From assembly GCF_000092405.1 (NCBI RefSeq), contig NC_014220.1:310001-374000 (forward strand): a stretch of 64,000 nt of DNA, written 5' to 3'. The stretch is from Syntrophothermus lipocalidus DSM 12680 (GTDB lineage Bacteria; Bacillota; Syntrophomonadia; Syntrophomonadales; Syntrophothermaceae). The translations under genes and the position numbers were made by a program. Below are positions 15,440-34,651 of the stretch, one piece after another; positions within the stretch are counted from its first letter, which is position 1, and each line of letters opens with the position of its first letter. The notes beneath the pieces were generated by a model. That model was not told the origin of the DNA, searched no databases, and saw only the letters and a list, made by a program, of their open reading frames with translations.

Positions 15440-15469
15440 TTGGCTGCGACGTTGATATTAGTTTATAAT
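15440..15469 (+). promoter_or_regulatory. Probable promoter of the PsuG/corrinoid cluster
   Basis: TTGGCT (15440-15445), 18 bp, TATAAT (15464-15469), about 100 bp upstream of the first gene. The -10 box is perfect and the -35 box fair. If used, the cluster is not solely dependent on read-through from riboswitch 1. Confidence 0.45.
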
Positions 15470-15567
15470 TCAGTAGTGGATACGTCCAATTAATTATATA
15501 GAACATAACAATAAGTTATGATAATTCCCGTTAGCTTAAGTACCCGAAAAGGTGGGGGTCGAGGGTG

Positions 15568-17531: not shown

Positions 17532-17565
17532 CTCGCACATTAGAACAGTTCAGGGGAGTGGGTTT

Positions 17566-18711: not shown

Positions 18712-18804
18712 GGGTAAGGACAGCCCACAATGGCGGCTGTACAGACGGGCCGCCCGGCGACTCGAGGTCTCTAAAAGTAGAACTGAGAGCCGAACGAGGA
18801 GGGA

Positions 18805-19362
18805 GTGGCAAGGAAAATGGTCACACCTGACAGCGTTTTCCGGGACACCCGAGCCGTGATGCAGGAGTTGTTAGCTGCTGGTCCTTATATTCCGGGGGCT
18901 ATCTTGGTTGTGTCCTGCAGTATCAGTCGGGTCGAAGGCCGAAGGGAGGACACGGTTGGGGATCCCGTTCTAGCCCACGCTGTGGCTAAGGCCCTGTGGC
19001 AACACAAGCCCGAAGACTTACAAATTGCCGTGCAGTGCTGTGAGCACCTCAACCGAGCCCTTATCGTCGAAAAAAGTCTGATGTTGGACAAGGACCTGGT
19101 GGAGGTAAACGTGCTGCCGATCCCGGAAGCAGGAGGGACTTTCGCCGCTATCAGTTGGGGTTACTTCCGGGATCCGGTGGTGGTGGAGTCTATTTCCGCT
19201 AACCTGGGGATAGACATCGGACTAACCATGATCGGCATGCACCTCAGGCCCGTGGCAAAGCCTATAAATCTTACCACTGAGTACGTGGGTAAAGCCAGGG
19301 TCGTAGCAGCCAGAACTAGGCCCAGGCTGATAGGAGGTGAGCGGGCTAGGTACAGACGGTAA
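18805..19362 (+). CDS. UPF0340 (DUF436, YwlG-like) family protein
   Basis: The 185-aa product matches the UPF0340 family throughout: GAILVVSCSISRVEGRR, then IAVQCCEHLNRALIVE, VNVLPIPEAGGTFA, IDIGLTMIGMHLRPVAKP and ARTRPRLIGGERARY. Length is normal. The family's biochemical function is unknown. In other Firmicutes the gene often lies next to glyA; here it sits between the double-cubane-like protein and the PfkB kinase. GTG 18805 sits too close to the SD gaggaggg, so ATG 18817 may be the true start. Confidence 0.88.
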   Translation: MARKMVTPDSVFRDTRAVMQELLAAGPYIPGAILVVSCSISRVEGRREDTVGDPVLAHAVAKALWQHKPEDLQIAVQCCEHLNRALIVEKSLMLDKDLVEVNVLPIPEAGGTFAAISWGYFRDPVVVESISANLGIDIGLTMIGMHLRPVAKPINLTTEYVGKARVVAARTRPRLIGGERARYRR

Positions 19363-19418
19363 AAAGTTAGGTGGATTAGGTGAGGACCCAAAGTCTCTAG
19401 GGGAGGAAGATAGCGAGA

Positions 19419-20360
19419 ATGTCGTCAAAGGTTGTAGGGTTAGGTACAGCCGCCATGGATGTGGTTTTGCGTTGTAATACGCTGCCCAAATCTGATGGGT
19501 TCGCTTTTGTTCATGAAGAATGTTTGACTCCCGGGGGGAGTTGTGCCAACGTTCTCACTGCTCTGTCTTTTCTCGGCGTGCATACGGCTTTGGTAGCCAA
19601 GATAGGGGATGACTCCTACGGCAGGCTCTTCCTCGAGGACCTCAAAAAGTGTGGGGTAGGTGCCGACCACGTTAAGGTAGTTGCAGGGGGAATTACTCTT
19701 CATACCTTCATCGCTGTATCCCCCGACGGGTCCAGGATAGTGTTGGCTAACCTCGGCAATACCTTGCTTTCGCTGGCAGCAGACGAAGTCGGTCCTCACA
19801 TGCTGGAAGATGCCCGCGTTTTCTACACCGATATGTTTCCCGGCAAACCGGCCTTGTCCTTAGCTCAAAGGTGTAGAGACCTGGGAATTCCTATGGTTTT
19901 CAACCTGCAGTGTCCCCCGTCCTTCATGGCTTTGTGCGGGGTGCCAAAAAGAGAGTTGGCACAAATGGTGACCCTCAGTACCCTGGTGATCAGCAACGCC
20001 GAAAACCTGCGGGAGCTGACCGGTATCGATGACATTTTCCGGGCCCTGGAGGAGGTGAAACGGTGGGGACAGCCGCCTGAGGGGGTCATATGTACTCTGG
20101 GCTCCGAGGGGGCTGCCTGGCTGTACGAAAAACAAGTGCTGAAGAAGGACGCCTTTCCGGTAAAAGCCGTCGACACTACCGGGGCTGGGGACGCATTTGC
20201 TGCCGGGCTGATATTCGCTCTTTTCTACAAGGGGCAAAGCGCTGACGAGGCCCTCGCATTTGCCAATGCCTGTGCAGCGATAAAGTGCACTCAATCCGGA
20301 CCCAGGTTGAGGGTAACGGAAAGGGATGTTCTCGAGTTCCTAAAAGGTTTCCAGTATTAA
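19419..20360 (+). CDS. PfkB family carbohydrate/nucleoside kinase
   Basis: The 313-aa ribokinase-fold product has an N-terminal PfkB signature around GGSCANVLTALSFLG (sugar binding). The C-terminal anion-hole/catalytic motif is VDTTGAGDAFAAGLIFAL, with the catalytic Asp in GAGD. In psu operons a PfkB kinase (PsuK) phosphorylates pseudouridine before PsuG acts. The presence here of a PsuG homologue and a ribose-type importer makes a nucleoside or C-nucleoside kinase the best guess. The start ATG follows the SD ggggaggaa. Confidence 0.88.
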   Translation: MSSKVVGLGTAAMDVVLRCNTLPKSDGFAFVHEECLTPGGSCANVLTALSFLGVHTALVAKIGDDSYGRLFLEDLKKCGVGADHVKVVAGGITLHTFIAVSPDGSRIVLANLGNTLLSLAADEVGPHMLEDARVFYTDMFPGKPALSLAQRCRDLGIPMVFNLQCPPSFMALCGVPKRELAQMVTLSTLVISNAENLRELTGIDDIFRALEEVKRWGQPPEGVICTLGSEGAAWLYEKQVLKKDAFPVKAVDTTGAGDAFAAGLIFALFYKGQSADEALAFANACAAIKCTQSGPRLRVTERDVLEFLKGFQY

Positions 20361-20387
20361 TAGCGCGCAGCGAGGAGGATGAAATGG

Positions 20388-21482
20388 ATGAAAATACGGG
20401 TTTTAACCGCAGTTATGCTGGTGATTGCGATGATGTTTACCTTGTGTGCAGCAGGTTGTGCGGGTAAGACGGAAACAAAAGTGGAAAAACAGACCGAGTC
20501 CAAATCACAAGTCGAAAATAAGGCCCCTGCTAAGTCTAACGCGGCATTCCAGGAAGCCGAGGCTAAACTGCTGGATTCTCTTAAACCTCTGCCCGAAAAA
20601 GGCAAGAGATACAAGTTAGCGGCTTTAGAGATTACCCTGGCTAACCCGTTCTGGGTTACTATGAAGCAGGGTTACGAAGAAGCGGCCAAAGAATACGGAG
20701 TCGACATCGACGTGCTGGCAGCCCCTAAAGAGGACGACATCAACTCCCAGCTGGACACGCTCAAAGCTTTGGTTGTCAAGGGGTACGATGCAATCGCCAT
20801 TTCTGCCATCACCCCGTTCAACCTCATTTCCGGGGTGGCGGAGGCCAACAAAAAAGGGATTCCGGTTGTCGCCGTGGGCACCAGTATAGACGAGAAAGCG
20901 GCGGCCGAGCAGGGAGCTAAAGTCGAAGCTTTCATAACCTCTGACTTTGCAGAGCAGGGACGTCTCGGAGCTCGTTTTATCGTGGAGAAGGTGAAGTCGG
21001 GTAAGGTGGCGATAATCGAAGGTTTGGCCGGAGCAGCCCAGGGAGAAGCCCGCAAGAACGGGGCCAAAGAAGTGTTTGAGAGCAGCCCCGGGATTCAACT
21101 GGTCAGCGTTCAGCCGGGTGATTGGGACCGCCAAAAGGCGTACGATTTAACGGTTAACCTGCTGCAGGCCCATCCCGACCTCAAGGGAATATTCTGTGCT
21201 AACGACGTCATGGCCCTGGGAGCGGTTGAAGCCCTAAAGGCCAAGGGCAAGAAACAGCAGGTGACGGTAGTGGGGGTAGATTTCATCGACGAAGCCAGGG
21301 AATCCATAGCTAAAGGCGAACTGGACGGTACTGTAGCCATGTCGCCATACCTTTTCGGAAAAGGTGGTGTAATCCTCATGCTCAAGGTTTTGCAGGGACA
21401 CCAGATTACAGAAGACATATACTGGACCCCCCTGGCCCTGGTCAACAAGAGCAACGTTCACACCTTTGAGGGCTGGCACTAG
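20388..21482 (+). CDS. Sugar ABC transporter substrate-binding lipoprotein (RbsB-like, periplasmic-binding family 4)
   Basis: The N-terminus has a hydrophobic signal and a lipobox-like Cys (TLCAAGCAGK), then a charged linker rich in Lys/Glu/Ser. The mature domain follows RbsB-type binding proteins: LAALEITLANPFWVTM, DGYDAIAISAIT-like (KGYDAIAISAITPFN), CANDVMALGAVEAL and VTVVGVDFIDEA. It should capture a sugar or nucleoside outside the membrane for the ATPase and permease downstream. ATG 20379 is an alternative start with an SD too close; 20388 gives better spacing to gaggagg. Confidence 0.9.
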   Translation: MKIRVLTAVMLVIAMMFTLCAAGCAGKTETKVEKQTESKSQVENKAPAKSNAAFQEAEAKLLDSLKPLPEKGKRYKLAALEITLANPFWVTMKQGYEEAAKEYGVDIDVLAAPKEDDINSQLDTLKALVVKGYDAIAISAITPFNLISGVAEANKKGIPVVAVGTSIDEKAAAEQGAKVEAFITSDFAEQGRLGARFIVEKVKSGKVAIIEGLAGAAQGEARKNGAKEVFESSPGIQLVSVQPGDWDRQKAYDLTVNLLQAHPDLKGIFCANDVMALGAVEALKAKGKKQQVTVVGVDFIDEARESIAKGELDGTVAMSPYLFGKGGVILMLKVLQGHQITEDIYWTPLALVNKSNVHTFEGWH

Positions 21483-21512
21483 GAGGCAGGGTGTAAAACG
21501 GCTGCAAGGGTC

Positions 21513-21543
21513 AAGGCCGGTTCGAGGCAACTCGGACCGGCTT
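21513..21543 (+). other. Strong intercistronic hairpin after the binding-protein gene
   Basis: AAGGCCGGT-t-CGAG-GCAA-CTCG-g-ACCGGCTT forms a long G/C-rich stem capped by a GNRA loop (GCAA), with no T run. Such hairpins often stabilise the mRNA of an abundant binding protein and lower expression of downstream genes. Confidence 0.6.
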
Positions 21544-21565
21544 GAATTCGTCGTGAGGAGCTGGT

Positions 21566-21661
21566 TTGTGGGATTTTACAGGGGTGAGCGGCGACTTTAT
21601 GCTTGACTACGCCGAGAAGTTGGGTCTTGGGACCAGGAATTACGGACTCCTGAGTGTTTGA
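21566..21661 (+). CDS. Possible 31-aa peptide between binding protein and corrinoid protein
   Basis: TTG 21566 lies five bases after the SD gaggag and opens a frame of 31 codons: MWDFTGVSGDFMLDYAEKLG then LGTRNYGLLSV. The composition looks protein-like and not repetitive. No family was recognised. It could be a leader peptide, a small subunit or the remnant of a methyltransferase tail. Confidence 0.3.
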   Translation: MWDFTGVSGDFMLDYAEKLGLGTRNYGLLSV

Positions 21662-21713
21662 AGTCTGAGAGCAGTAGCGGCGCAGCTAGGTTGCCAGCAG
21701 GGAGGGGAGTATA

Positions 21714-22376
21714 TTGAACAGCGGGAGGAAAAGTTTTGCCGAACTGATTGCCGAGGTGGTTCTCGGTATGGATATCGAAAGAACCGCGGCTCTCTGTGAG
21801 TCTTATGCTTGTTCAGGCGGGGAGGTCAGACATATTATAGATGACGGTTTGCGGCGGGGCTTGTACAGAGCGGGTTGTCTCTTTGAAAAAGGACAGTATT
21901 TCATACCCGAACTCCTGCTGTGCTGCGACGCGTTCTATGCCGGATTGGAGGTTCTAAAGCCCTACCTGCCTCAAAAGCCTTCGGAATTGAGGACGCGAAT
22001 AGTAATCGGCGTCGTCGAGCACGATGTGCACGATATAGGAAAGAATCTGGTAAAAACCATGCTGGAATGTGCGGGCCATGAAGTCATCGACCTGGGGCGG
22101 GATGTTCCCGCTCGGGCTTTTGTGAAAAAGGCCGGTGAGGTCGAGGCGGATGTAATAGCCCTTTCTACTCTGATGACTTCGACTATGTCCGGGATGAAAG
22201 AAGTCATCGATTTGCTGTGCAGAGAGGGCGCAAGGGATCGGTTCAAGGTTATAGTGGGCGGGAGCCCGGTTACGGAAAGCTATGCCAGGCAAATTGGGGC
22301 CGATGGATACGCCCCCGACGCTATGGGTGCCGTCCGGGAGGTGTCGCGTTGGGCAAAAAGACGAACCCAGGTGTGA
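21714..22376 (+). CDS. Corrinoid (B12-binding) methyl-carrier protein, MtbC/MtaC-like
   Basis: The 220-aa product has an N-terminal helical cap domain (about 1-90) and a Rossmann-like B12 domain. The DxHxxG-type cobalt-ligand motif is EHDVHDIGKN (102-111), with His106 as the lower ligand. ALSTLMTSTMSGMKEV and VIVGGSPVTESYAR are the usual later B12-domain segments. It should shuttle a methyl group to or from the UroD-fold methyltransferase of the cluster. The TTG start has the SD ggagggga. No corrinoid reductive activator (RamA/RACo) is present in the window. Confidence 0.93.
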   Translation: MNSGRKSFAELIAEVVLGMDIERTAALCESYACSGGEVRHIIDDGLRRGLYRAGCLFEKGQYFIPELLLCCDAFYAGLEVLKPYLPQKPSELRTRIVIGVVEHDVHDIGKNLVKTMLECAGHEVIDLGRDVPARAFVKKAGEVEADVIALSTLMTSTMSGMKEVIDLLCREGARDRFKVIVGGSPVTESYARQIGADGYAPDAMGAVREVSRWAKRRTQV

Positions 22377-22395
22377 TGTCGGCGAGGTGAAGAGA

Positions 22396-23130
22396 TTGAG
22401 CGGAATCCGCTTGAAAGTGAAAAACCTGCATAAGAGTTTCGGTAGCGTGAAAGCATTGGCCGGAGTTGACCTCACGGTGGAACCGGGTGAGGTTACCGCT
22501 GTTGTCGGCGACAACGGGGCTGGGAAGTCTACGTTTGTTAAGATCATATCAGGAATACTGGTTCCCGATGAAGGACGCATTATTATCGACGACCGGGTGT
22601 ATACGCATTTGACCCCTGCCCTGGCTATTCAAGAGGGAATCGCTACTGTTTACCAGGATTTAGCCTTAGTAAACTGCGGCGATGTAGCTACTAACGTATT
22701 TCTCGGCAGGGAGTTAACTAGGGGCATATTTCTAGACAGGAAAAGGATGTACAGCCGAGCGCGAAAGGTTTTGGAAGAAATGGGAATAAACCTACCAGCA
22801 GTGGACATGCTAGTCGGGCTTTTGTCCGGAGGCCAGCGGCAGGCGGTGGCCATGGCCAGAGCCGTTAACATGGGGGGCAGGCTCTTCGTTCTCGACGAGC
22901 CGACGGCAGCTTTGGGCTATAAGGAGACCTGTCTTGTGCTGGATTTGATTAGGAGGTTGCGGGACCAGGGGTATTCGGTAATTATCATAAGCCATAACCT
23001 TCACCAAGTCTTTTCTATCGCGGACAGCATCTGCGTATTCAGGCACGGGAGGGTTGTTAGTTGTACCAGCGTCAAGCACACCGACCCAGAGACGGTCGTG
23101 AAACTGATAACGGGAACGGAAACGGCGTAG
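22396..23130 (+). CDS. ABC transporter ATP-binding protein (sugar type, single domain)
   Basis: From TTG 22396, seven bases after SD gaggtga, the product is 244 aa. Walker A is GDNGAGKST, the signature LLSGGQRQAVAMARA, Walker B RLFVLDEPTAALG and the H-loop IIISHNLHQV. Unlike RbsA, which has two fused nucleotide-binding domains, it has one and would act as a homodimer. It sits between the corrinoid protein and the permease of the same importer. The longer frame upstream overlaps the corrinoid gene and is unlikely. Confidence 0.92.
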   Translation: MSGIRLKVKNLHKSFGSVKALAGVDLTVEPGEVTAVVGDNGAGKSTFVKIISGILVPDEGRIIIDDRVYTHLTPALAIQEGIATVYQDLALVNCGDVATNVFLGRELTRGIFLDRKRMYSRARKVLEEMGINLPAVDMLVGLLSGGQRQAVAMARAVNMGGRLFVLDEPTAALGYKETCLVLDLIRRLRDQGYSVIIISHNLHQVFSIADSICVFRHGRVVSCTSVKHTDPETVVKLITGTETA

Positions 23131-23141
23131 AAACCAGTAGT

Positions 23142-24104
23142 GTGGCAGTGTTGTGGCAGCGGGCCAAGGCAAATATCTCTGTGGGTACGGGAAAGTACTT
23201 CAACCAGGTGCTCTTGGTGACGGCCTTGGCGGTTCTGGCTGCTGTCCTCTCGTTAGTTTCCCCGCATTTTTGGCAGTGGGATAACGCCAAGAATATACTC
23301 GAGCAAACAGCCGTGCTTATCGTGATGTCAGTGGCTATGACTATCGTGATAGCGAGCGGGGGCATTGATCTTTCGGTAGGTGGGGTAGTGGCTCTGAGCG
23401 GGATTGTCGCCGGGCTCTGCCTTAAAGCCGGGGCAACGGTAGCGGCAGCGGTAACTTGCGCTCTGGGTTTAGGTTCCCTAGTAGGACTGCTGAACGGGAG
23501 TTTGATCTCCCTGCTCGATATTAACCCTTTTATAGTTACCCTGGGTTGCGGGTCGATTGCGCGGGGATTGGCTCTCATTTTGACCCAGGGGATCCCTATA
23601 TACGGGTTCGGATCCGGTTTTGCTTGTTTAGGGAAGGGAAACATTATGGGACTCACCGTTCCGGTTTGGCTTGCTTTGGCAGTAGCTTTGCTGGGATGGG
23701 TAGCAGCCACCCGAACGAAATTAGGGCTGTACGCTTCCGCTATGGGAGAAAACGAAGAAGCCCTGCTCCGAACTGGGGTTCCGGTGGGCTGGTACAAAAC
23801 CGGACTCTATGCCATCTGCGGAACAGCAGCGGCGCTAGTGGGTTTGGTTTTAGCATCCCGTCTTAACACTGCTGACCCTACAGTCGGCCTCGGGTATGAA
23901 CTTCAAGCGATTGCAGCCACCGTGCTCGGCGGTACCAGCATGAAAGGGGGGGCGAGCAGTATACCGGGGACCGTTATTGCTTGCCTTTTGCTAGGGGTGC
24001 TGGCGAACGGCCTAACCATCGTGAGCGTCCAGCCTTATTACCAGCAGCTTCTAATAGGTATAATTATCATAGCGGCGGTTATCGTGTCTGAGCGTAAGAA
24101 ATAG
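23142..24104 (+). CDS. Sugar ABC transporter permease (RbsC/BPD_transp_2 family)
   Basis: A hydrophobic protein with about eight to ten membrane helices and the RbsC-type cytoplasmic signature: TIVIASGGIDLSVGGVVALS near the N-terminus, GLLNGSLISLLDINPFIVTL, and AIAATVLGGTSMKGG with an EAA-like loop. It forms the membrane channel for the binding protein and ATPase of the cluster. The start is uncertain. GTG 23142 gives a typical 320 aa without overlap; TTG 23061 has an SD but would overlap the ATPase by 70 bp. Confidence 0.9.
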   Translation: MAVLWQRAKANISVGTGKYFNQVLLVTALAVLAAVLSLVSPHFWQWDNAKNILEQTAVLIVMSVAMTIVIASGGIDLSVGGVVALSGIVAGLCLKAGATVAAAVTCALGLGSLVGLLNGSLISLLDINPFIVTLGCGSIARGLALILTQGIPIYGFGSGFACLGKGNIMGLTVPVWLALAVALLGWVAATRTKLGLYASAMGENEEALLRTGVPVGWYKTGLYAICGTAAALVGLVLASRLNTADPTVGLGYELQAIAATVLGGTSMKGGASSIPGTVIACLLLGVLANGLTIVSVQPYYQQLLIGIIIIAAVIVSERKK

Positions 24105-24238: not shown

Positions 24239-24267
24239 TTGATATGGCACTTTAAAAGTGCTACATT
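24239..24267 (+). promoter_or_regulatory. Promoter of riboswitch-2 transcript
   Basis: TTGATA (24239-24244), 17 bp, TACATT (24262-24267), located 80-90 bp upstream of the cobalamin aptamer core. At the equivalent place before riboswitch 1, TTGAGA (14589-14594) is followed after 17 bp by a weaker TAGTGT. Confidence 0.5.
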
Positions 24268-24299: not shown

Positions 24300-24635
24300 C
24301 TAAATACAAAATACAAAGGCATCGGGTATCTTCGTTTCGGCTAGCAAGACGAAGCGAGGTTAAAAGGGAACCAGGTGAGAATCCTGGACGGTCGCGCCAC
24401 TGTGAGCGGGGAGCGACATTCCCAGTAAGCCACTGTCCGAACATGTAGCCGGTTGTGACGGAACCGGGTGCGTGCCGGATGGGAAGGCGGGAATGGAGCG
24501 AGGATCCGCGAGTCAGGAAACCTGCCCGAGGCGGTGCGTCGTCAACCTTCCGCGTGAGAGGGGGAGTGCGCTATGAGTGCATATCAGGCCTTGTGAGTTT
24601 TAACCTCACTTCTTTCAGTGGAAGTGGGGTTTTTT
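24300..24635 (+). promoter_or_regulatory. Cobalamin riboswitch 2 with terminator
   Basis: All B12-element parts are present: GGGAACCAGGTGAGAATCC, GCGCCACTGT, GGATGGGAAGG and the B12 box GAGTCAGGAAACCTGCC (24510-24526). The peripheral hairpin CTTCGT...ACGAAG precedes the core. A terminator CCTCACTTC/GGAAGTGGGG-T6 (24604-24635) closes the expression platform. From 24358 to 24526 it matches riboswitch 1 with 7 substitutions in 169 bp and no gaps. It lies 110 bp upstream of the SLH/DUF4430/ECF cluster and should shut that cluster off when cobalamin is plentiful. Confidence 0.96.
24604..24635 (+). terminator. Riboswitch-2 intrinsic terminator
   Basis: CCTCACTTC-tttcagt-GGAAGTGGGG followed by six T. 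Confidence 0.87.
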
Positions 24636-24748
24636 AATTGGTGTTTGGTTTGGTAGGGTAGCTACGGATCAACGCTCGATGATTGATTTTCAGAGATGGG
24701 CGTTGATGCCATTGTAGTAAAGAAATGGTTGAGGGAGGGTTAGAATTC

Positions 24749-27535
24749 ATGCATAAGAACGGTGGACGGAAGCGCCTGGTAACGCTGGTCTGCTTGCTGG
24801 CCGTACTGTTAACAACGGTTATTCTGCCAGGAACCGCAGAAGCCCAGGCGAGTCTTAATGACCTTGCTGCCAGGGCGGTGCAGAATAATTATGTCTTGCT
24901 TCAAACTGGGACTCCAGTAGATGACGGTTGGACGAGTTTTGGCGCTTACGATGCATATGTGCTTGATAAGGCCGGAGTCGATTTGAGCAGCTGGGTTTAT
25001 GAGAGCCAGAGTTTTAAGGATAAGGTTCTGGCGAAAACATACCAGATACTGTCCAATCTTAGCGGTACTTATTCATCTAAACTCCTGGCCCAGCATCTGC
25101 TGGCAGCGCAGGCTTTCGGGGATAATGAGAAAGCCAACCAACTGCTCCAGATACTAAACGATCGTCAGACGTGCACGGGGAACGGGTCTTTTGACAACAA
25201 TGCTTTCGGTGATCTCGCGGCTTTTGAGCTTTTGGGAAGGGCAGGGGTAATAGGCCAGGTTTACGACAAAAATGCGGCGATTGAGTATATTTTGAGCCAA
25301 AGGGATACGAGCACCGGGGCTTGGACCAGTTCCTGGAACGATACTGTGGCGACCTGCCAGGCAATCCGAGCTTTGGATTATCTAAAGCACTATGCGTCAG
25401 GGGACCAGACAGATGCTGTGACACAGGCCATAGAGGCGGGCCTCGAATGGCTGAAAGCACTACAGAAAGAGAATGGCAGTTTTCAAGATGACGCTGGTTG
25501 GGAGGACCCCGCGATAGACACGGCTGAAGTCATATATACTTTGAAACTTTTGGAAATAGATCCCCAAACTTGGAAGAGCAGCGCGGAAAACAGTCCGGTA
25601 GACTACTTACTGACCGGAGTACAGAACGAAGATGGTACTTTCGGCAGCAGCAAGAACATAATGGATAACACCTGGGTTCTGGATGCCTGCCTGATGCTGG
25701 GCGCAACCCTGAGCAACGATCAGCCCGTTGGTGTATTTATCAGGCCTGCACAAGCAAGTGTTAGGGTAGGAGACCAGCAGGATCTCACTGCGAAACTCCT
25801 CCGCCTAGACGGAACCGAGACCGATGTGACAACGCAAGCAGTATGGGAAGTAAGTGATGACAGTGTCGCCAGTATAGATACTGGAGGCGTGCTTAGTGCC
25901 CTTGCTCCAGGTACCACCCTGGTGAGGGCGAGTTACGGGAGTCTGACCGGAACGGCAACGGTAACAGTAGCTGCCGCGAATTCTGGGTCAGGCACGACCT
26001 CGGGATACCAGACAGTAACGGTGAACATAGCTGTGGTGGGAAAGGGTGGAAACCTTCTGTACGGCCCAGGATCAGTGGAACTTTCTCCAAACGATAGATT
26101 CGGGCTGACAGCGATGGGGGCTTTGGACAAAACGGGTTTGAGCTGGGAGTTTTCGAGCCAGTGGCCCGGGCTGGTGGTTGCTATAGAAGGCGAACGAAAC
26201 GAGGGAATGAACGGCTGGTGCTACAGCGTGAACGGCAGCATGCCGAGTGTTTTACCCGGCGACTGCTCAGTACGCCAAAATGACAAGATCATCTTTTGGT
26301 ACAGCACCAACGCCATGTCCGGCGGTCCCAAGTGGGAAGATCTCGTCAGCGGTAAATACCTGCAAGAGGCTCAGACAACAGCGATAAGCCCGGAGATTGT
26401 GCAAGCGGTAAAGGAAGCCGTCAGCCAATACCAGAACGAACTCGGGCAGGTGTTGACCGGGATCAAGATCCTCAACCAAGATCACATCATGTCAAAATCC
26501 GAGGTCGAAGCTTTGAAAAAGGAGTTGGCGGAAAACCGGGTATCCGTAACCGTGAAGGTGGGAACGGAAGAAGCCGTGCTGGCAGATACCAAACAGGAGG
26601 TGTCGTTGCTCATACCCGCCAAGGCCTTGAACGAGACGGTAGAAATATCGCTCAAGGAATTGAATTCGTCCCAAGTTGACGTGCAGGTCCCGGGCAAAAT
26701 CGCTTCATCCCTTTACGAGCTTGAGCCCAGTGGTACCAAGTTCGCTTCGCCCGTAACCGTTATTATTAAGCTTCCGATAGATGAGGGTCTAAAGCTCGAA
26801 CTCCTGACCCCGGCTTGGTACGACGAGAAGGATAAACAATGGGTGCCCATTCCCGGACTGATAGATGCCAAGAAGGGGCTGGCCATATTCAAAACCGACC
26901 ATTTCACCAAGTTTGCGGTGGTCGAGTTGCCGCCGACGAACCAGGTGGTCGTGACAAAACAACCGGAGAAGACCATTTCCTTCCCCGATGTCGGTGAGAA
27001 GTTCGCTTGGGCCAAAGAAGCTATAGAGTACCTGGCGGCCAAGGGTGTTGTCCGCGGAACCGGCAAGGGCTTCGAACCGGCTCGCCCGGTGATCAGGGCG
27101 GAATTCGCGGCCATGTTGGCAAACGCCTTAGGCTTGACTCCGGACAAGGTCAGGGGTACCGGCTTCCGGGATGTAAAGTATGAAGACTGGTTTGCAGGTG
27201 TTGTCGGGGCGGTAGCCAACCAGGGCTTAGCCGGTGGTTACCCTGACGGAACTTTTGGTCCCGGCCGAACCATAACCCGCTTCGAGATGGCCTCGATCCT
27301 AGCCCGGATGCCCGCAGTGCCAGCACCCGGACAGCTAAGCCAAACAGTTCTAAGAGATAAAGAATCTACCCCTGCTTGGGCTCGGAAAAGCGTGGAGTAC
27401 GTTGTAGAACGCGGCCTCATGAGAGGATGTGAAGGATCGACTTTCCAGGGTCAAAGGAGCACCACCCGGGCAGAAGCGGCGGTGGTCGTCTACAGGTATT
27501 TGAAATCGCAGGCCGCAGAACCAGGGTCAAAATAG
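24749..27535 (+). CDS. S-layer-anchored transcobalamin-like protein (alpha/alpha toroid + Big-2-like + DUF4430 + 3 SLH)
   Basis: A roughly 928-aa secreted protein; ATG 24749 follows the SD gagggaggg. In order: a signal peptide ending near GTAEAQA; prenyltransferase/squalene-cyclase-type repeats at about 30-320 (EYILSQRDTSTGAWTSSW, LKALQKENGSFQDDAGWED, LLTGVQNEDGTFGSS); a bacterial Ig-like domain (QDLTAKLLRLDGTETDVT). Next comes a DUF4430 domain with GWCYSVNGSMPSVLPGDCSV, then a ZU5-like segment, then three SLH repeats starting near FPDVGEKFAWAKEAIEYL. The barrel plus DUF4430 pairing is that of intrinsic factor/transcobalamin. With the cobalamin riboswitch upstream and ECF genes downstream, surface corrinoid capture is the best hypothesis. 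Binding itself is not shown. Confidence 0.85.
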   Translation: MHKNGGRKRLVTLVCLLAVLLTTVILPGTAEAQASLNDLAARAVQNNYVLLQTGTPVDDGWTSFGAYDAYVLDKAGVDLSSWVYESQSFKDKVLAKTYQILSNLSGTYSSKLLAQHLLAAQAFGDNEKANQLLQILNDRQTCTGNGSFDNNAFGDLAAFELLGRAGVIGQVYDKNAAIEYILSQRDTSTGAWTSSWNDTVATCQAIRALDYLKHYASGDQTDAVTQAIEAGLEWLKALQKENGSFQDDAGWEDPAIDTAEVIYTLKLLEIDPQTWKSSAENSPVDYLLTGVQNEDGTFGSSKNIMDNTWVLDACLMLGATLSNDQPVGVFIRPAQASVRVGDQQDLTAKLLRLDGTETDVTTQAVWEVSDDSVASIDTGGVLSALAPGTTLVRASYGSLTGTATVTVAAANSGSGTTSGYQTVTVNIAVVGKGGNLLYGPGSVELSPNDRFGLTAMGALDKTGLSWEFSSQWPGLVVAIEGERNEGMNGWCYSVNGSMPSVLPGDCSVRQNDKIIFWYSTNAMSGGPKWEDLVSGKYLQEAQTTAISPEIVQAVKEAVSQYQNELGQVLTGIKILNQDHIMSKSEVEALKKELAENRVSVTVKVGTEEAVLADTKQEVSLLIPAKALNETVEISLKELNSSQVDVQVPGKIASSLYELEPSGTKFASPVTVIIKLPIDEGLKLELLTPAWYDEKDKQWVPIPGLIDAKKGLAIFKTDHFTKFAVVELPPTNQVVVTKQPEKTISFPDVGEKFAWAKEAIEYLAAKGVVRGTGKGFEPARPVIRAEFAAMLANALGLTPDKVRGTGFRDVKYEDWFAGVVGAVANQGLAGGYPDGTFGPGRTITRFEMASILARMPAVPAPGQLSQTVLRDKESTPAWARKSVEYVVERGLMRGCEGSTFQGQRSTTRAEAAVVVYRYLKSQAAEPGSK

Positions 27536-27599
27536 GGTGCAAGGCGCAGGGAGTTGAAGGGCCCCGTTTAAGCAGGGACTTTGGGGGAGGAATGATGTT

Positions 27600-28793
27600 T
27601 TGTTAAAACGCCGACTGGGTTTTTGTTTGGCAGTCCTGATGGTTATTTTTCTGGCGGTGGCGGTCGCCGGTTGCGGCGGCCGGGCGGCCAATGATATTAC
27701 CGGCCATAAAACAAAGGAAGCAGCTGTTCAGAGCGCAGGCCCAGACAAAGATGCGGATCGAATCCAGGTTTCGAAAGCGGCCAAAGACGGTGCGGCAAAA
27801 AACGATACCGTTCAGGAGAAAACGCTTGGGAAAACGGCGGACACTAAGGAGCCTACCGGGACAAAAGCAAGTCCCGGTACCGATTCTGACCAGGATGCTT
27901 TTCTCGAAAAAGGTGAGGGAAAAACCGGACAAACCGCTGCTACGGTGCACCTCGTGGTAACGAAAGACTTCGGAAGCTCGAAACTTCTGGACAAGAAGGT
28001 TCGCATGGAACCCGGCTGGACAGTGTTCGATGTTCTCCAAGCTAACTGTCAGGTGAAAACGGGGTACAGCGGCGGCTTGATTACCGGGATCAACGGGGTA
28101 GAGTCGCAGAGTGGGGGGTTCTCAGGCCCACGGGAAGACTGGTTTTTCTTTGTCAACGGTATCTGCTCGGACGTAGGGGCAGGCGATTACGAGCTGAGGG
28201 CTGGCGATTCGGTGTGGTGGGACTACCATTCATGGGATACTTTTGGATTGGTTAACTCGGCAGTGATAGGCTGCTACCCGGAGCCGTTCCTCCATGGCTA
28301 CCGCGGGAAAACAAGGCGAACTACCGTTTTGTGCGCTCCAGGGAGCTTGGACCTTGGAGAGACCCTGAAAGAGGCCCTAAAAGCCAGCGGAGTTTCTTCG
28401 GTTGGGGTTCGAATTCTGAACGAGAGCCTGCTTTCATCGAGATCGGGACCAACCATCGTGGTAGGCGAGTGGAGACATCTAAAAGACAGCCCTTACCTAG
28501 ACAAGCTGAACCAAGGATACCGGCGGAACGGGACGTTTGTCCACTTCACCGAGGATGGAGTCGAACTGCTCGATTGTAGGGGAGAACCCGCGCGGGTGTA
28601 TGCTACTAACGCTGCGGTCATAGCGGCTACCGGCGAGGGACTGGGAGATGGCAGTCCTCTGTGGCTGGTAATAGGTATCGACCGCGAGGGGCTGGAGCAA
28701 GCGGTCGAGGCCCTGGCCGGGCGGCCGGAGAAAATATCCGGGCTGTACAGTGCAGCTGTCGTGGAAGGTAAAGTAATGAGGTTACCGTTCTAA
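27600..28793 (+). CDS. DUF4430 domain lipoprotein
   Basis: The 397-aa product starts at TTG 27600, 12 bases after SD ggagg. A lipoprotein signal ends at AVAVAGCGGR, followed by a roughly 90-residue Lys/Thr/Asp-rich linker. The DUF4430 (transcobalamin C-terminal-like) domain runs from about 115 to 215, with VRMEPGWTVFDVLQ, EDWFFFVNGICSDVGAGDYE and GDSVWWDYHSWD. A further 180-residue domain of unknown type follows. Membrane-tethered, it could relay ligand from the SLH-anchored protein upstream to the ECF transporter downstream. Confidence 0.85.
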   Translation: MLKRRLGFCLAVLMVIFLAVAVAGCGGRAANDITGHKTKEAAVQSAGPDKDADRIQVSKAAKDGAAKNDTVQEKTLGKTADTKEPTGTKASPGTDSDQDAFLEKGEGKTGQTAATVHLVVTKDFGSSKLLDKKVRMEPGWTVFDVLQANCQVKTGYSGGLITGINGVESQSGGFSGPREDWFFFVNGICSDVGAGDYELRAGDSVWWDYHSWDTFGLVNSAVIGCYPEPFLHGYRGKTRRTTVLCAPGSLDLGETLKEALKASGVSSVGVRILNESLLSSRSGPTIVVGEWRHLKDSPYLDKLNQGYRRNGTFVHFTEDGVELLDCRGEPARVYATNAAVIAATGEGLGDGSPLWLVIGIDREGLEQAVEALAGRPEKISGLYSAAVVEGKVMRLPF

Positions 28794-28813
28794 GGGAAGG
28801 CAGGAAAGTAGCG

Positions 28814-29728
28814 ATGCTGGCTTACCGGAAAAAAGGCAACTTGATTCATACGCTCCATCCGGTTACTATGCTGGTATTTATCCTGTCGGTATTCCTGCTG
28901 TCCCTGGTGTTTTCTCATCCTGCTTACCTCTTGGGCCTGTTCGTGGCAGTTGGAGCGGTCATTATCGCCTCTGATACTGCTCGGGAATGGCGGTCGTACA
29001 TGAAGCTGACACTGGCTATGATTCTCTTAATCGTTCTAATTAACGCTGTGGTGGGGCAGGCTGGTTCAACCCCGCTGTTCTCCGGGGCCAGGGTGCCTCT
29101 TTTGCGTCATTTGAGGGTAACCGTGGAAGGCCTGGCTTACGGAGCAGGCATGGGGCTGAGGCTCTTGGTTGTAATAAGCGTTTTTTGCCTGTACACCTAT
29201 GCGGTGCACCCCGACAAGATATTGAGCCTGCTCAGCCGCTGGATGACGAGGGCCACTCTTGTCATAACCCTTGCTACCCGCCTTTTTCCTTTGATGATAG
29301 GTGATTTTTACCGGATAACCGAGGTCCAGCGCTGCCGGGGCGTTAAGTTCGAAGTCGGCAGGTGGTGGGAGCGTGCGGGCAATCTGGTTCCGGTAGCCAG
29401 CGTCCTGTTACTTTCTTCGCTTGAGCGTTCGTTGCTCCTGGCCGAGTCCATGCACGCTAGGGGCTTCGGGAGTGGGCCTCGGAGCTATTACCGGAGGGAG
29501 CTGTGGCGACCGCGGGACTGGTTGGTAATGGCAGGCGTGATGATCGGAGCAATTACCGCGTTAGTAGCCGTGGGGCGGGGCTGGTCCGATTATATGTACT
29601 ACCCTCGCCTGGCAGCTATTACTGGTAGGGAAGTCGGCCTGGCCTCGGTCATGACTGCTATGTTTTCAGTACCTGCTGTTCTCGCTTGGGGGTGGAAAAG
29701 TTGGCCTTGGTTAAGATCGAAAATCTGA
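28814..29728 (+). CDS. ecfT: ECF transporter transmembrane component EcfT
   Basis: The 304-aa protein has five to seven hydrophobic helices. The two EcfT coupling motifs, small-Arg-Gly triplets in the cytoplasmic helices, are EVQRCRGVKF (about 173-182) and SMHARGFGSG (about 217-226). They contact the ATPase pair. It follows the DUF4430 lipoprotein by 20 bp and overlaps the ATPase gene. EcfT couples ATP hydrolysis to toppling of the substrate-binding S component. Confidence 0.92.
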   Translation: MLAYRKKGNLIHTLHPVTMLVFILSVFLLSLVFSHPAYLLGLFVAVGAVIIASDTAREWRSYMKLTLAMILLIVLINAVVGQAGSTPLFSGARVPLLRHLRVTVEGLAYGAGMGLRLLVVISVFCLYTYAVHPDKILSLLSRWMTRATLVITLATRLFPLMIGDFYRITEVQRCRGVKFEVGRWWERAGNLVPVASVLLLSSLERSLLLAESMHARGFGSGPRSYYRRELWRPRDWLVMAGVMIGAITALVAVGRGWSDYMYYPRLAAITGREVGLASVMTAMFSVPAVLAWGWKSWPWLRSKI

Positions 29729-31404
29729 CCTATTACTATCCCGGCACGGAAAAGCCAGCTTTAGACAGGATCAACTTGTCTATCCCTGAGGGACAGTTCG
29801 TTCTGGTAATCGGGGGTTCGGGAAGCGGAAAGTCCAGTCTGCTCCGGGTTATAGCCGGTTTGATCCCCGGTTTTTACGGGGGCAAATACGGCGGCAGGGT
29901 TTATCTCGACGGTACCGAATTGCGGGAACTCGACAAAAGAAGCCTGGTACAGAAGGTGGGTATAGTCTTTCAGGATCCCGAGGCGCAGATGGTTATGACC
30001 GGGGTGGAGCAGGAAATCGCTTTTGGCCTTGAAAACCTCGGGCTGCCTCCCAAGCTTATGAGACGCCGGGTGATGGAGGTCACGGAAGCTCTCTCGTTAA
30101 CAGGCTCTCTTTCCCGATTTATTCCAGAGCTGTCGGGCGGGGAAAAACAAAAGGTGGCCTTGGCTTCGGTCCTGGCAATGCAGCCAGAGGTGTTGTTGCT
30201 AGACGAACCCACATCGCAGCTCGATCCCGTGGCGGGAGAGGAAATACTCACCATGGTGAGGAGGCTGAACGAGGAAAACGGTATCACGGTGGTCCTGATC
30301 GAGCAACGCCTGGAGAGGTGTTTTCACCTGGCCGACCGGGTGCTGGTGATGGACGAGGGGAGGATTGTTTATGACCACCACGCTCCCGAGGCCATGGCTG
30401 AATGGGCTGTGAGGGGCGGGACGCCGTTTGTCCCTCCTCTGCCCAAGTTGTTTGCCAGCGTGGGGAGCTGGAGCATTCCGGTTACGGTCAAAGAAGGACG
30501 AAGGCTTCTCAGGAACTGGATTTCGAACTGCGGTTTTCCAGCTTCGACATGTGCTGAGGACAGGCTACGCGTAGTCAAGGCTGACTCCCAGAAACCTGTG
30601 CTAGAGGTCCAAAAACTCTGGTTCATTTATCCTAGTGGAACCGAAGTGCTGAAATCAGTCGACTTAGACATTCAACCGGGCAAATTCGTGGTCATAATGG
30701 GAGAGAACGGGGCAGGAAAGACTACTCTTCTCAAAAACATAAACGGCTTGCTCAGACCGTCTCGTGGACGGGTTATCATTGTGGGGCGGGATACCGGAAT
30801 GCTGCCCGTTGAAGAGCTGGCAAAGACGGTCGGATACCTATCGCAGAACCCTAACGATTATTTGTTTATGCCTACGGTAAGGCAGGAGATAGAGTTTACT
30901 CAGAAAAACCTGGGACTTGAGAACGATGCAACCGGGAAGCAGATTCTAAATAGGCTGGGCCTGGAAACGATTGCTGACCGTAATCCCCGCGATTTGAGTA
31001 CCGGGGAACGCCAGCGGGTGGCACTGGCTTCGGTTCTGGCAGCCAGGCCCGAGCTGCTGCTTTTGGACGAGCCCACCCGGGGTCTCGATTATAGATTAAA
31101 AGAAGAATTGGGCGGCCTCTTGCTGGAGCTCAAAGCCGGGGGAGCTACTGTGGCCGTAGTAACGCACGATGTCGAGTTTGCTGCTGAATACGCTGATGAG
31201 ATAGTGTTGATGGCGGCAGGAGAGGTTATGGAACAAGGAAGCAAGTACGATGTGCTTACAGGTTCGACCTTTTATTCACCGCAGTTGAACAAACTGTTCC
31301 ACAACATTATTCCTGGCATAGTTACCTTTGACCAGGCTAGGGAAGCCTTAGCCAGCTTGATGAACTGCGTTGAGCACGAGGGCGGGGCTTCCTTCCGGGG
31401 GTAA
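29692..31404 (+). CDS. ecfA: ECF transporter ATPase, two fused nucleotide-binding domains
   Basis: About 570 aa with two complete ABC ATPase domains. Domain 1 has Walker A GGSGSGKSS, Q-loop VFQDPEAQMV, signature ELSGGEKQKVALA and Walker B EVLLLDEPTSQLD. Domain 2 has Walker A GENGAGKTT, signature DLSTGERQRVALA and Walker B ELLLLDEPTRGLD. EcfA1 and EcfA2 are often separate genes; here they are one chain. The start is uncertain: GTG 29692 or TTG 29701, both inside the end of ecfT. Confidence 0.94.
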   Translation: MEKLALVKIENLTYYYPGTEKPALDRINLSIPEGQFVLVIGGSGSGKSSLLRVIAGLIPGFYGGKYGGRVYLDGTELRELDKRSLVQKVGIVFQDPEAQMVMTGVEQEIAFGLENLGLPPKLMRRRVMEVTEALSLTGSLSRFIPELSGGEKQKVALASVLAMQPEVLLLDEPTSQLDPVAGEEILTMVRRLNEENGITVVLIEQRLERCFHLADRVLVMDEGRIVYDHHAPEAMAEWAVRGGTPFVPPLPKLFASVGSWSIPVTVKEGRRLLRNWISNCGFPASTCAEDRLRVVKADSQKPVLEVQKLWFIYPSGTEVLKSVDLDIQPGKFVVIMGENGAGKTTLLKNINGLLRPSRGRVIIVGRDTGMLPVEELAKTVGYLSQNPNDYLFMPTVRQEIEFTQKNLGLENDATGKQILNRLGLETIADRNPRDLSTGERQRVALASVLAARPELLLLDEPTRGLDYRLKEELGGLLLELKAGGATVAVVTHDVEFAAEYADEIVLMAAGEVMEQGSKYDVLTGSTFYSPQLNKLFHNIIPGIVTFDQAREALASLMNCVEHEGGASFRG

Positions 31405-31451
31405 TTTCGAGGCGAAACGGCAAACAGTAAAAAGCGGGGGAGTGCATAAGC

Positions 31452-32993
31452 GTGAAAAAGAAAGTTTTCGCAATAGGGCTTAGTTTAGCGCTGTTTTTAG
31501 TTTTAGTGAGCTCGCAGGCAGCTTTGGCCGGTTACCCAGTGACGGGTTCAGAGGCGGCATCCAGCCTGGCAAGAGCTGTTCAATACCTGCACCGTGTCCA
31601 GAACCGCGACGGTGGTTTTCCGGCGAAGCCAGGAGGCGAGAGCAGCCAGGCGGTCACTTGCTGGGTCATCATGGCTTTAGAGGCAGCGGGAGAAGATGTC
31701 GCGGGCACGGCGTGGGCGCCGTCTGGTAAGAGCCCTTTGGATTACCTAGAAACTTGTAAGGACCATATACAAGAGACTTGTGATTATGCTCGTTTGTTAC
31801 TGGCTCTTAGTGCAGCCGCAAAAGATCCTAAGTACAAAGAGCTGGACTTGACGGAAAAGATAAGTTCTTTTCAACAGAGCGATGGGGCGTTCTTCCAGCC
31901 CGGTCGAGGAGAAAAAGGGATGATAAACGCCCACATGTGGTCGGTACTGGCTCTGGCCTCTGCCGGAAAAAAGATTCCAAACCAAGATAAGGCCCGGGAG
32001 TGGCTGTTAGCCCGGCAGAACGGGGACGGGGGCTTTAGCTGGTTAGAGGGGTACCAGAGTGATGCGGATGATACGGGAGTAGCCCTTCAGGTCTTGGTGC
32101 TTTTAGGAGAAAACCCCAATAATTCGACTGCGGTAAAAAACGCGCTGGCTTACATCAAGAGGTGCCAGGAGGACAACGGGGGATTCAACTGTGGTGATGC
32201 GTGGATGGCCAGCGGTGCCAATGCCGCTTCCGATGCCTGGGTCATACAGGGGTTAATAGCTGCGGGGGAAGACCCTCAAGGCCTCAAGTGGTCGAAAAAC
32301 GGAAAGAACGCCGTGACTCACCTTCTAAGCTTACAAAACAGCGATGGTTCCTTCAACTGGAAGGAAGGACTGGCCTCTTCGCCCGTCACGATGACCGCCT
32401 ATGCGGTGACGGCTTTGGCCGGAAAGCCGTTTCCGGTAAATGTTAACTACTGGAAACAATCGAAAAGTGAATCGAAAAGCGTTTTTTCCGACCTTACTCC
32501 GGAATACTGGGCTTATGACTCCATAATGAAGCTGGTACAGGTCAAGGCTCTGGGCGGGTACCCGGACGGGAGTTTTAGGCCGGAAAACCGGGTAACGAGA
32601 GCAGAGTTAGCGGTGTTCTTGTATAGAGGGCTGGGTTTGGAAGAGGCAGAGAGCAAAGCCAGCAATGGATTCGCCGATGTTCCTAAGAATTACTGGGCTG
32701 GTCAGGCTATCGCGGCCGTGGTAAGCAAAGGTTATATGAAGGGCAAGCCTGGCGGTTTATTTGACCCTAACGGTAAGATCACCGGAGCCGAACTGGCGAG
32801 TATACTGGCGAGGGCCTTGCCCCCTGATAAAGCCGGTTCCGTAACCGCTGGCCCATACTGGTATTCAGCGTCTGTAGAAGCAGCCCGGAAAAACGGGTTG
32901 TTGTATCCTGATTTCCAAGCCGCGCTTCCTGCCACCAGGGCCCAGTGTGCTTACAGCATCGCGCAATTAAGGAATGTATTAGGAATGAAATGA
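31452..32993 (+). CDS. S-layer-anchored alpha/alpha-toroid repeat protein
   Basis: The 513-aa product has a clear signal peptide ending at AALAGYP. About five prenyltransferase/squalene-cyclase-type repeats follow (VQNRDGGFPAKPGG, FQQSDGAFFQPGRG, ARQNGDGGFSWLEG, CQEDNGGFNCG, LQNSDGSFNWKEG), then about three SLH repeats from FSDLTPEYWAYDSIMKL. It is related to the 928-aa protein but lacks Ig-like and DUF4430 domains. Within this ECF operon it is probably a second ligand-binding barrel. GTG start with SD gggggag. Confidence 0.85.
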   Translation: MKKKVFAIGLSLALFLVLVSSQAALAGYPVTGSEAASSLARAVQYLHRVQNRDGGFPAKPGGESSQAVTCWVIMALEAAGEDVAGTAWAPSGKSPLDYLETCKDHIQETCDYARLLLALSAAAKDPKYKELDLTEKISSFQQSDGAFFQPGRGEKGMINAHMWSVLALASAGKKIPNQDKAREWLLARQNGDGGFSWLEGYQSDADDTGVALQVLVLLGENPNNSTAVKNALAYIKRCQEDNGGFNCGDAWMASGANAASDAWVIQGLIAAGEDPQGLKWSKNGKNAVTHLLSLQNSDGSFNWKEGLASSPVTMTAYAVTALAGKPFPVNVNYWKQSKSESKSVFSDLTPEYWAYDSIMKLVQVKALGGYPDGSFRPENRVTRAELAVFLYRGLGLEEAESKASNGFADVPKNYWAGQAIAAVVSKGYMKGKPGGLFDPNGKITGAELASILARALPPDKAGSVTAGPYWYSASVEAARKNGLLYPDFQAALPATRAQCAYSIAQLRNVLGMK

Positions 32994-33029
32994 GGGAGAA
33001 ACGATTATTGAAGGATGCGGCAATGAAAC

Positions 33030-33728
33030 ATGAACCGAAAAGCTCTTAAATTAACCTTTACGGTTGTGGTCCTGTCGTTAATATCGGGTTTGTTTGCGAA
33101 GCTGTGGTTCAGCAGGGAAGTGAACTGGGCTTTACTGTTAACCGTGGGTATCGCTTTGGTTATCGGGGTTGTATTGTGGCGGTTCGAATGGGGTAGGGTC
33201 AACTCCAGGCAGATGGCGGTTGTCGCTACTATGTCGGCATTGGCTGCCATATCTCGGGTACCGTTTGCGGCGATCATGGGGCTCCAGCCCACGACTTTTG
33301 TGGTCATGATAACCGGGTATGTTTTTGGGCCGCAAATGGGGTTTGTGGTCGGTGCGGTTGCCGCCTTGGTTTCGAATTTCTTTCTGGGACAGGGGCCGTG
33401 GACTCCCTGGCAGATGTTCTGCTGGGGCGTGTGCGGGGTGATTGCAGGGGCGTTGGCCAGGTACCAGAAAGGATTTAATTCTGCTATTTTCGCGGTTGTG
33501 GGCGGGGTGTGCGGGTATCTTTTCGGCTGGGTGATGGACTTTTGGTACTGGGTAGGCTTTGTTTACCCGTTGACGTGGAAGACCTTTGTGGCCGCTTATG
33601 CGGCCAGCCTGCCGGCAGATACTTTACACGCCATCGGTAATGTGGTTTTTGCCATGGTATTTGGCAAGCCGTTTTATTCGATTTTGTATCGGTTCAAGAC
33701 AAGGTTTTCGGTCGATTACATCGAATAG
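33030..33728 (+). CDS. ECF transporter S component (probable cobalamin/corrinoid specificity)
   Basis: The 232-aa membrane protein has about six to seven helices. The ECF S-component pattern is present: an N-terminal alanine-rich helix (ATMSALAAISRVPFAA), VFGPQMGFVVGAVAALVSN and the conserved loop FFLGQGPWTPWQMFCWG. The last motif is, from memory, typical of the CbrT-like group predicted for cobalamin. It closes the riboswitch-2 cluster, so corrinoid uptake is the natural assignment. Specificity cannot be proved from sequence alone. Confidence 0.82.
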   Translation: MNRKALKLTFTVVVLSLISGLFAKLWFSREVNWALLLTVGIALVIGVVLWRFEWGRVNSRQMAVVATMSALAAISRVPFAAIMGLQPTTFVVMITGYVFGPQMGFVVGAVAALVSNFFLGQGPWTPWQMFCWGVCGVIAGALARYQKGFNSAIFAVVGGVCGYLFGWVMDFWYWVGFVYPLTWKTFVAAYAASLPADTLHAIGNVVFAMVFGKPFYSILYRFKTRFSVDYIE

Positions 33729-33817
33729 CTTTATTGAGGTCATAACTGGTGAGGGCATTACTTTTTGTATTGCAAATTAGGTCAGGCGCACATGCCTAGA
33801 GATGGAGGGAGTTGCGA

Positions 33818-34651
33818 TTGCCCGGCTCAGGATTTCAATTGGGTATTTTTTCTTGGTTCGGGTTTGTACTCCCGCTGAGCGAGAGGCTCAGGATGATTAA
33901 AGAGGCCGGGTTTGGTGCTACTTCTGTCTGGTGGGAGGACGAACAGGGATATCCGGGAATTAAAAAGGAGAACATGCCGCGTATGGTACGGGAATCCGGT
34001 TTGCTCTTGGAGAACATACACGTTCCATATGACGGGTGCAACGCGTTGTGGAACGAAAACCGGTCGGTCAGAGAGGCCGAAGTGAAGAAACACATGGCTT
34101 GGGTTGAGGATTGTATCAGGTACGATATTCCGGTGATGGTGATGCACATAGCAGATGGACCTGCCCCGCCGGGTGTATTGAAATACGGCGTGGAAAGCAT
34201 CGGCCGCATCCTGAGAGTCGCGGAGCAAGGGGGCATAATTCTGGCTCTGGAAAACACTGACCACACCTCTTATCTTCGCCTTGTTCTTTCTGAAATCGAA
34301 TCCCCTTGCTTGGGGCTGTGTTATGATAGCTCGCACGACCTGCTTTACAACCCTGACAGTCCTCAATTGCTCTCGGAACTGGGCGGGCGCTTGGTTGCCA
34401 CGCATTTTTCCGACACCGACGGGATGCGGGACCGGCACTGGCTGCCGGGCGAAGGAGTTATCGACTGGGAACAAATCGGCAGGGTTTTTCCGCAGGCCAC
34501 TTACCGGGGTTTCCTGAGTTTGGAGGTGTGCGCCGATGGTGGTTGGAGCAGGGGGGATCCGGAGGCATTTATAAAAAAAGCTTATGCACAAGCTCTGCGC
34601 ATTGGCGGTCTGCTGACACGTTCACGACCTTCTGACGTTTGGGTTAGTTGA
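33818..34651 (+). CDS. Sugar phosphate isomerase/epimerase-like TIM barrel (AP endonuclease 2 superfamily)
   Basis: About 277 aa with the xylose-isomerase-like barrel pattern. Metal-binding residues are visible in IILALENTDH (Glu), LCYDSSHDLL (Asp/His), ATHFSDTDGMRDRHWLPGEG and FLSLEVCADGG (Glu). TTG 33818 lies seven bases after SD ggaggga; TTG 33812 is too close. It follows the S-component gene by 90 bp. Whether it belongs to the corrinoid operon is unclear. No substrate can be named. Confidence 0.8.
   Translation: MPGSGFQLGIFSWFGFVLPLSERLRMIKEAGFGATSVWWEDEQGYPGIKKENMPRMVRESGLLLENIHVPYDGCNALWNENRSVREAEVKKHMAWVEDCIRYDIPVMVMHIADGPAPPGVLKYGVESIGRILRVAEQGGIILALENTDHTSYLRLVLSEIESPCLGLCYDSSHDLLYNPDSPQLLSELGGRLVATHFSDTDGMRDRHWLPGEGVIDWEQIGRVFPQATYRGFLSLEVCADGGWSRGDPEAFIKKAYAQALRIGGLLTRSRPSDVWVS

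Follow-up and report, generated by a model that had tools for sequence, protein, structure and literature searches.

A predicted corrinoid capture-and-import operon in Syntrophothermus lipocalidus that joins transcobalamin-like surface proteins to a CbrT-type ECF transporter

The genome of the thermophilic anaerobe Syntrophothermus lipocalidus DSM 12680 is a single contig of 2,405,559 bases, and we analyzed a 64,000-nucleotide part of it (NC_014220.1, positions 310,001 to 374,000), here called the window; coordinates below are positions in the window. At 24307-33728, it holds an operon in which a cobalamin riboswitch is followed by six genes, all on the plus strand. In order, these encode a surface protein with an alpha/alpha toroid, a DUF4430 domain, and S-layer homology (SLH) repeats (protein A), a DUF4430 lipoprotein (protein B), the EcfT and fused EcfA-EcfA' subunits of an energy-coupling factor (ECF) transporter, a second SLH-bearing toroid protein (protein C), and an ECF S component. 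A first-pass annotation had described this arrangement, and Rfam and Pfam agree with it.

The riboswitch aptamer (24307-24543, +) belongs to the cobalamin family, scoring 112.3 bits (E value, 2.5e-27) with the Rfam covariance model RF00174, for which the gathering score is 31.5. Downstream of it lies an intrinsic terminator (24602-24631, +) with a 12-bp stem and a U tract (minimum free energy, -20.3 kcal/mol; z score, -3.07), and an alternative hairpin at 24593-24609 shares the left arm of this terminator. The terminator is probably the expression platform of the riboswitch. As read from the DNA, the aptamer, the terminator, and the arm-sharing hairpin make up the usual layout of a B12-OFF transcriptional riboswitch. 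From this architecture, we infer that the riboswitch would permit transcription past the terminator when intracellular cobalamin is low. Upstream of the aptamer, TTGATA-17-TACATT, TG-extended (24239-24267, +), is a promoter-like site by consensus match only.

The longest open reading frame (ORF) of protein A starts at 24725, with an alternative start at 24749. We consider 24749 the better start, because a Shine-Dalgarno-like AGGGAGGG lies about 10 nucleotides 5' of it; 24725 is without one. The product (24749-27535, +) has a signal peptide, an alpha6/alpha6 toroid, a Big_2 Ig-like domain, DUF4430, a ZU5-like region, and three SLH repeats, as judged by Pfam, AlphaFold2, and Foldseek. The SLH repeats score 109 bits and DUF4430 (PF14478) 38.8 bits, against a curated cut-off of 23.8. 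The Big_2 domain, which the first-pass annotation had left out, sits between the barrel and DUF4430. Protein B (27600-28793, +) has a lipobox whose Gly-Cys is invariant across 16 B proteins, a DUF4430 domain of 72 bits (same cut-off), and a conserved C-terminal alpha/beta domain. Both A and B pass the PF14478 cut-off and so belong to the DUF4430, or transcobalamin-like SLBB, family. Protein C (31452-32993, +) has a signal peptide, an alpha/alpha toroid (PF00432, 60 bits), and SLH repeats (88 bits), and it carries no DUF4430. The N termini of A and C are visibly hydrophobic, and the genome encodes a CsaB pyruvyltransferase (291 bits; cut-off, 213), which together with SLH repeats and an export signal qualifies these proteins as SLH anchored. 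The domain search thus found what had been expected, DUF4430 in A and B, SLH in A and C, and a toroid in C, with one weak spot: the Prenyltrans toroid of A scored 22.6 on the whole protein, below the Pfam cut-off of 26.5, and barely reached it, at 26.6, when the domain was trimmed.

The C-terminal domain of B (28251-28790, about 180 residues) deserves separate mention. It is conserved in most B proteins and has no match in Pfam even at an E value of 10; its AlphaFold2 model resembles, in Foldseek, a domain of BcsB and the accessory domain of GH115/GH67 glucuronidases.

We compared AlphaFold2 models of A and B, built with alignments taken only from the window and the fetched related loci, with known structures. 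The model of A, from the barrel to the beta domain, has a predicted local distance difference test score (pLDDT) of 91 and a predicted TM score (pTM) of 0.72; for B, the values are 92 and 0.90. The modeled barrel of A has 12 helices. The top Foldseek match of A was haptocorrin (4KKI, 1.5e-9), and the five best matches in the PDB were all haptocorrin or transcobalamin (8IXT, 7QBE, and 2BB5), with intrinsic factor (3KQ4 and 2PMV) close behind. These matches span both domains and outrank terpene cyclases. Protein A also matched 5NO0 (TMt, 0.71), with the beta-grasp fold of the transcobalamin beta domain. Protein B matched transcobalamin 7QBG (E value, 1.5e-4; root mean square deviation [RMSD], 2.9 Å over 110 columns) as well as 2PMV and 4KKI, and its DUF4430 part superimposes on the transcobalamin beta domain at 2.6-2.9 Å. 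As modeled, A has the combination of alpha6/alpha6 barrel and beta domain that marks the animal cobalamin carriers.

The transporter genes point to the same ligand. EcfT (28814-29728, +) is a transmembrane coupling subunit of the CbiQ family (PF02361, 62.7 bits), and the fused EcfA-EcfA' ATPase (29686-31404, +) has two ABC_tran domains and scores above the cut-offs of TIGR04520/04521. With the S component (33030-33728, +; PF12822) encoded beside them, the operon specifies a dedicated (group I) ECF transporter. A profile of 13 S-component orthologues, searched against the PDB, matched chain A of 6FNP, which is CbrT, at an E value of 2.6e-23; the runner-up had 0.034. ECF-CbrT has been shown to be a transporter of both cobalamin and cobinamide, with affinities in the nanomolar range (PMC5997447). 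In line with the first-pass annotation, the closest characterized S component is therefore of the B12 type and not one for another vitamin. The S component of the operon has an N-terminal extension of about 50 residues beyond CbrT.

Could the transporter serve cobalt ions, the lower-ligand nucleoside alpha-ribazole, or a different vitamin, and not complete corrinoids? EcfT is of the CbiQ family, the riboflavin-type and general ECF-type Pfam models of S components also match this one, and in Listeria alpha-ribazole is imported by an ECF-type S component. On the other hand, no other PDB entry comes near CbrT in the profile search, and neither ions nor nucleosides need surface proteins of the transcobalamin fold. 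Moreover, the genome encodes the S component for cobalt, CbiM, at another place, together with a CbiQ/CbiO of its own, so the ECF motor of our operon is not the cobalt one. We rejected cobalt import by the operon, given that CbiM/CbiQ/CbiO sit in a separate biosynthetic operon, and we regard any of these other substrates as very improbable.

Scanning species genomes with the S profile gave at least 570 relatives, and we surveyed the loci of the 80 best, picked by S similarity. They come from Moorella, Desulfotomaculum-like bacteria, Clostridium, Paenibacillus, Bacillus, lactobacilli, Actinomycetota, and archaea. The gene order recurs in many genera, far above chance. A B12-box-like motif, counted with up to two mismatches and not by model score, precedes the first gene in 36 of the 48 loci with a complete upstream region. 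Of the 71 loci with a toroid or DUF4430 gene, 30 encode SLH repeats, those of Moorella and Paenibacillus among them, and S-layer anchoring is thus one form among several. Of 63 genomes from the class of our host, 43 encode DUF4430, 44 encode the S component, and 40 encode both (Fisher P, 1e-8); Rfam finds a cobalamin riboswitch in all 20 fetched operons of this class, ending 112-293 bases 5' of the first gene. The toroid and DUF4430 are separate adjacent genes in loci L034, L037, L049, L074 (Thermosyntropha), and L116. Fused here and neighbors elsewhere, the two domains present classical fusion evidence for joint action, and by the same logic B and C of our operon could form a second, split carrier.

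This distribution also bears on the idea that the surface DUF4430 proteins are a sensor, or an adhesin to corrinoid-rich partner cells such as methanogens, with import being secondary. The host does live in syntrophy with methanogens (PMC3035303), and A bears an Ig-like domain and other surface modules. However, the genes are tightly packed into one operon that has an ECF motor and S component of its own and is under B12 riboswitch control, and homologous operons are found in Bacillus, Paenibacillus, and Clostridium, none of them obligate syntrophs. We give this idea next to no weight.

Several relatives have features of their own. In loci L084, L087, L121, and L125, single proteins carry 2 to 6 copies of DUF4430, as if corrinoid-binding domains had been multiplied; the protein of L125 (Calidifontibacillus) has 6 in 2063 amino acids. 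In lactobacilli, a cluster of the same type, ECF T-AA-S plus DUF4430, is plasmid borne. On Lactiplantibacillus plantarum plasmid pMF1298-5 (L143), a gene annotated as fucose-binding lectin II sits between S and DUF4430, and Enterococcus plasmids also bear S homologues. The S gene of a same-family relative (genome G060; L033, 15834-16562) is split into two adjacent ORFs with one stop codon between them, by either a sequencing error or decay. Another relative's locus (L040, 4065-4682) has three tandem molybdenum/tungsten cofactor riboswitches.

We propose that the operon is a B12-repressed system for corrinoid capture and import, with the cargo passing from A and C to B and on to the CbrT-like S component of a dedicated ECF motor; we put the probability of this at roughly 85%. 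Proteins A and C would be exported, with their SLH repeats fixing them in the wall or S-layer, and the alpha6/alpha6 barrel and DUF4430 beta domain of A would bind corrinoid the way intrinsic factor and transcobalamin do. The corrinoid would then be handed to the membrane-tethered lipoprotein B, which may team up with the barrel of C to make a split carrier of two domains, and from there to the S component, for import by the EcfT/EcfAA motor.

A number of observations weigh against this proposal. CbrT functions without any extracellular protein (PMC5997447), and our host also has genes for de novo corrin synthesis and a riboswitch-linked BtuFCD-type importer. The animal family model PF01122 was matched neither by the barrels at E values up to 10 nor by the whole proteins at E values up to 0.1. 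Sequence searches of the PDB with A and B returned no transcobalamin or other cobalamin carrier, which is why linking these proteins to the carriers takes fold comparison or Pfam. The whole-length superposition of A on transcobalamin is poor, with TM scores of 0.33-0.48 and an RMSD of 18-20 Å (model pTM, 0.72). The first-pass annotation had matched the domain order of A to that of transcobalamin; the barrel and the beta domain do match in fold, and the match in order was overstated, since the Ig-like domain separates the two and their placement in the predicted apo form is unlike that in transcobalamin. An RMSD of this size is expected if the Ig-like domain keeps the two ligand-binding domains of A apart in the model, and a closed form that sandwiches the ligand is possible. 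Finally, squalene-hopene cyclases and prenyltransferases are closer sequence relatives of the barrels than transcobalamin is.

This last point suggests another division of labor, in which import of corrinoid is right, only B and S handle it, and A and C serve mainly in wall storage or structure or bind wall or lipid ligands through cyclase-like barrels. The absence of DUF4430 from C fits this, as does a relative that lacks A and has the riboswitch directly before B (L042). Yet the best fold matches of A are cobalamin carriers in both domains, and toroid and DUF4430 are fused or adjacent in many genera behind B12 riboswitches. We consider such a wall role unlikely.

The neighborhood of the operon includes one more gene, which the first-pass annotation had not counted in. 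Its product (33812-34651, +) is a protein of the AP endonuclease 2 superfamily (PF01261, 92.7 bits), and its best functional model is that of CbiR (NF041277). CbiR is a phosphodiesterase that remodels cobamides, and 25% of its homologues adjoin transport genes (PMC7733943), as this one does. We rejected membership in CbiR itself, as the score, 38.1 bits, is below the equivalog cut-off of 105; the protein may represent a separate clade or have another function. CbiR-like relatives turn up in 10 of the 44 genomes that have the S component and in 0 of the 19 that lack it (P = 0.025), and in several (G030, G038, G011, and G014) the gene adjoins the operon. This linkage suggests remodeling and makes the product a candidate cobamide remodeling phosphodiesterase. 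Import of corrinoids followed by remodeling is a reasonable proposal from these genes: inside the cell, the CbiR-like enzyme may strip an imported corrinoid of an unsuitable lower ligand, and CobT and CobS would rebuild it.

The genome has five cobalamin riboswitches. Apart from the one described here, they precede CobT, a methyltransferase/sugar-type ATP-binding cassette (ABC) operon just upstream of ours, a CobB-CobD-CbiMQO-CbiK-CbiL-CbiD-CbiG-CbiH operon, and a DUF2284-BtuFCD-type operon. Auxotrophy of the host for B12 is unsupported, as CbiD, CbiK, CbiL, CbiG, CbiH, CobB, CobD, CobT, and CobS are all present; the host can probably synthesize corrinoids, with two salvage routes besides. A B12-dependent enzyme of the methylmalonyl/isobutyryl-CoA mutase family points to a demand for the cofactor. 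Burroughs et al. (2007, PMC1796856) noted that synthesis of B12 is usually missing from bacteria with toroid plus SLBB proteins, and within our class there is only a weak trend toward absence of CbiD, which is found in 9 of 43 genomes with DUF4430 versus 9 of 20 without (P = 0.07).

Two of the other riboswitch-controlled operons are worth recording. In the BtuFCD-type operon (G000:C1:1511500-1520000, L141), the importer genes are preceded by one for DUF2284, a predicted metal-binding protein. The operon directly upstream of ours (14635-24104, +) is led by another cobalamin riboswitch (115 bits), which likewise comes with a terminator (14929-14959). It encodes an Indigoidine_A-fold (pseudouridine-glycosidase-like) protein, an MtaA/CmuA-like methyltransferase, an HgdB-like protein, DUF436, a PfkB kinase, a sugar-type substrate-binding protein, an MtbC-like corrinoid protein, and a CUT2-type ATPase and permease. 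It is unusual for a B12-OFF switch to govern a corrinoid-using methyltransferase together with nucleoside- or sugar-like uptake; one idea is that this operon serves uptake and use of a lower-ligand nucleoside.

A fuller version of our proposal has a multistep extracellular relay, from the S-layer carrier to the lipoprotein and second barrel as a split carrier and then to S, serving an ECF transporter and coupled to cobamide remodeling inside the cell, the work of a new CbiR-like clade, in a host that carries genes for corrin synthesis too. We advance this version as a tentative one, with the odds somewhat against it. To our knowledge, the textbook ECF transporter is an importer that does without soluble binding proteins, and its membrane S component alone binds the substrate. 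An ECF system with dedicated surface carriers, widespread and under riboswitch control, would change that picture, if ours is one. It would also name a main corrinoid uptake route for many Gram-positive anaerobes and bacilli and provide a living bacterial counterpart to animal intrinsic factor and transcobalamin, for which an origin in bacteria has been proposed.

The first-pass annotation knew of no characterized system of this kind, and as a statement of novelty this goes too far. Burroughs et al. (2007, PMC1796856) described surface toroid plus SLBB proteins of Gram-positive bacteria with a second SLBB protein and CbiO/CbiQ in the operon, predicted them to be B12 scavengers, and proposed them as the source, by transfer, of animal transcobalamin. 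We found no experimental study of a bacterial DUF4430 protein or of such an operon in the literature searched, which includes few subscription journals. The operon is a real and widespread example of a so far predicted kind of system, with a well-supported function. To the 2007 work we add the CbrT identity of S, the riboswitch before 20 of 20 fetched class operons, the SLH anchors, confirmation at the level of the fold, the extra domain at the C terminus of B, the CbiR-like gene as a partner, and the occurrence in a host that has genes for corrin synthesis. With an SLH-anchored form in a bacterium that is in culture, the prediction of 2007 is open to direct test.

The systems of Burroughs et al. 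resemble ours in the secreted protein with an N-terminal toroid and SLBB/DUF4430, the second SLBB paralogue, the CbiO-like ATPase, and the CbiQ-like membrane protein. They differ in that the main text of that study has neither a riboswitch nor S-layer anchoring, predates both the CbrT assignment and CbiR, and ties the proteins to hosts without B12 synthesis, unlike the present one. ECF-CbrT of Lactobacillus delbrueckii (PMC5997447, 6FNP) has a homologous S component of established cobalamin and cobinamide specificity, but it shares a group II motor and uses no extracellular protein, whereas our operon encodes a dedicated motor and surface proteins alongside. In intrinsic factor, transcobalamin, and haptocorrin, a barrel precedes a beta-grasp domain, the same fold that is predicted for A; A is set apart by the missing PF01122 match, the inserted Ig-like domain, and the SLH anchor, and it would pass the cofactor to an ECF transporter, where the animal carriers use a receptor. 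BtuBFCD with BtuG and BtuH in diderms likewise combines riboswitch control with high-affinity extracellular capture that feeds an ABC importer, as we propose here from the genes. Its capture folds and importer type are unrelated to ours, and it works at the outer membrane.

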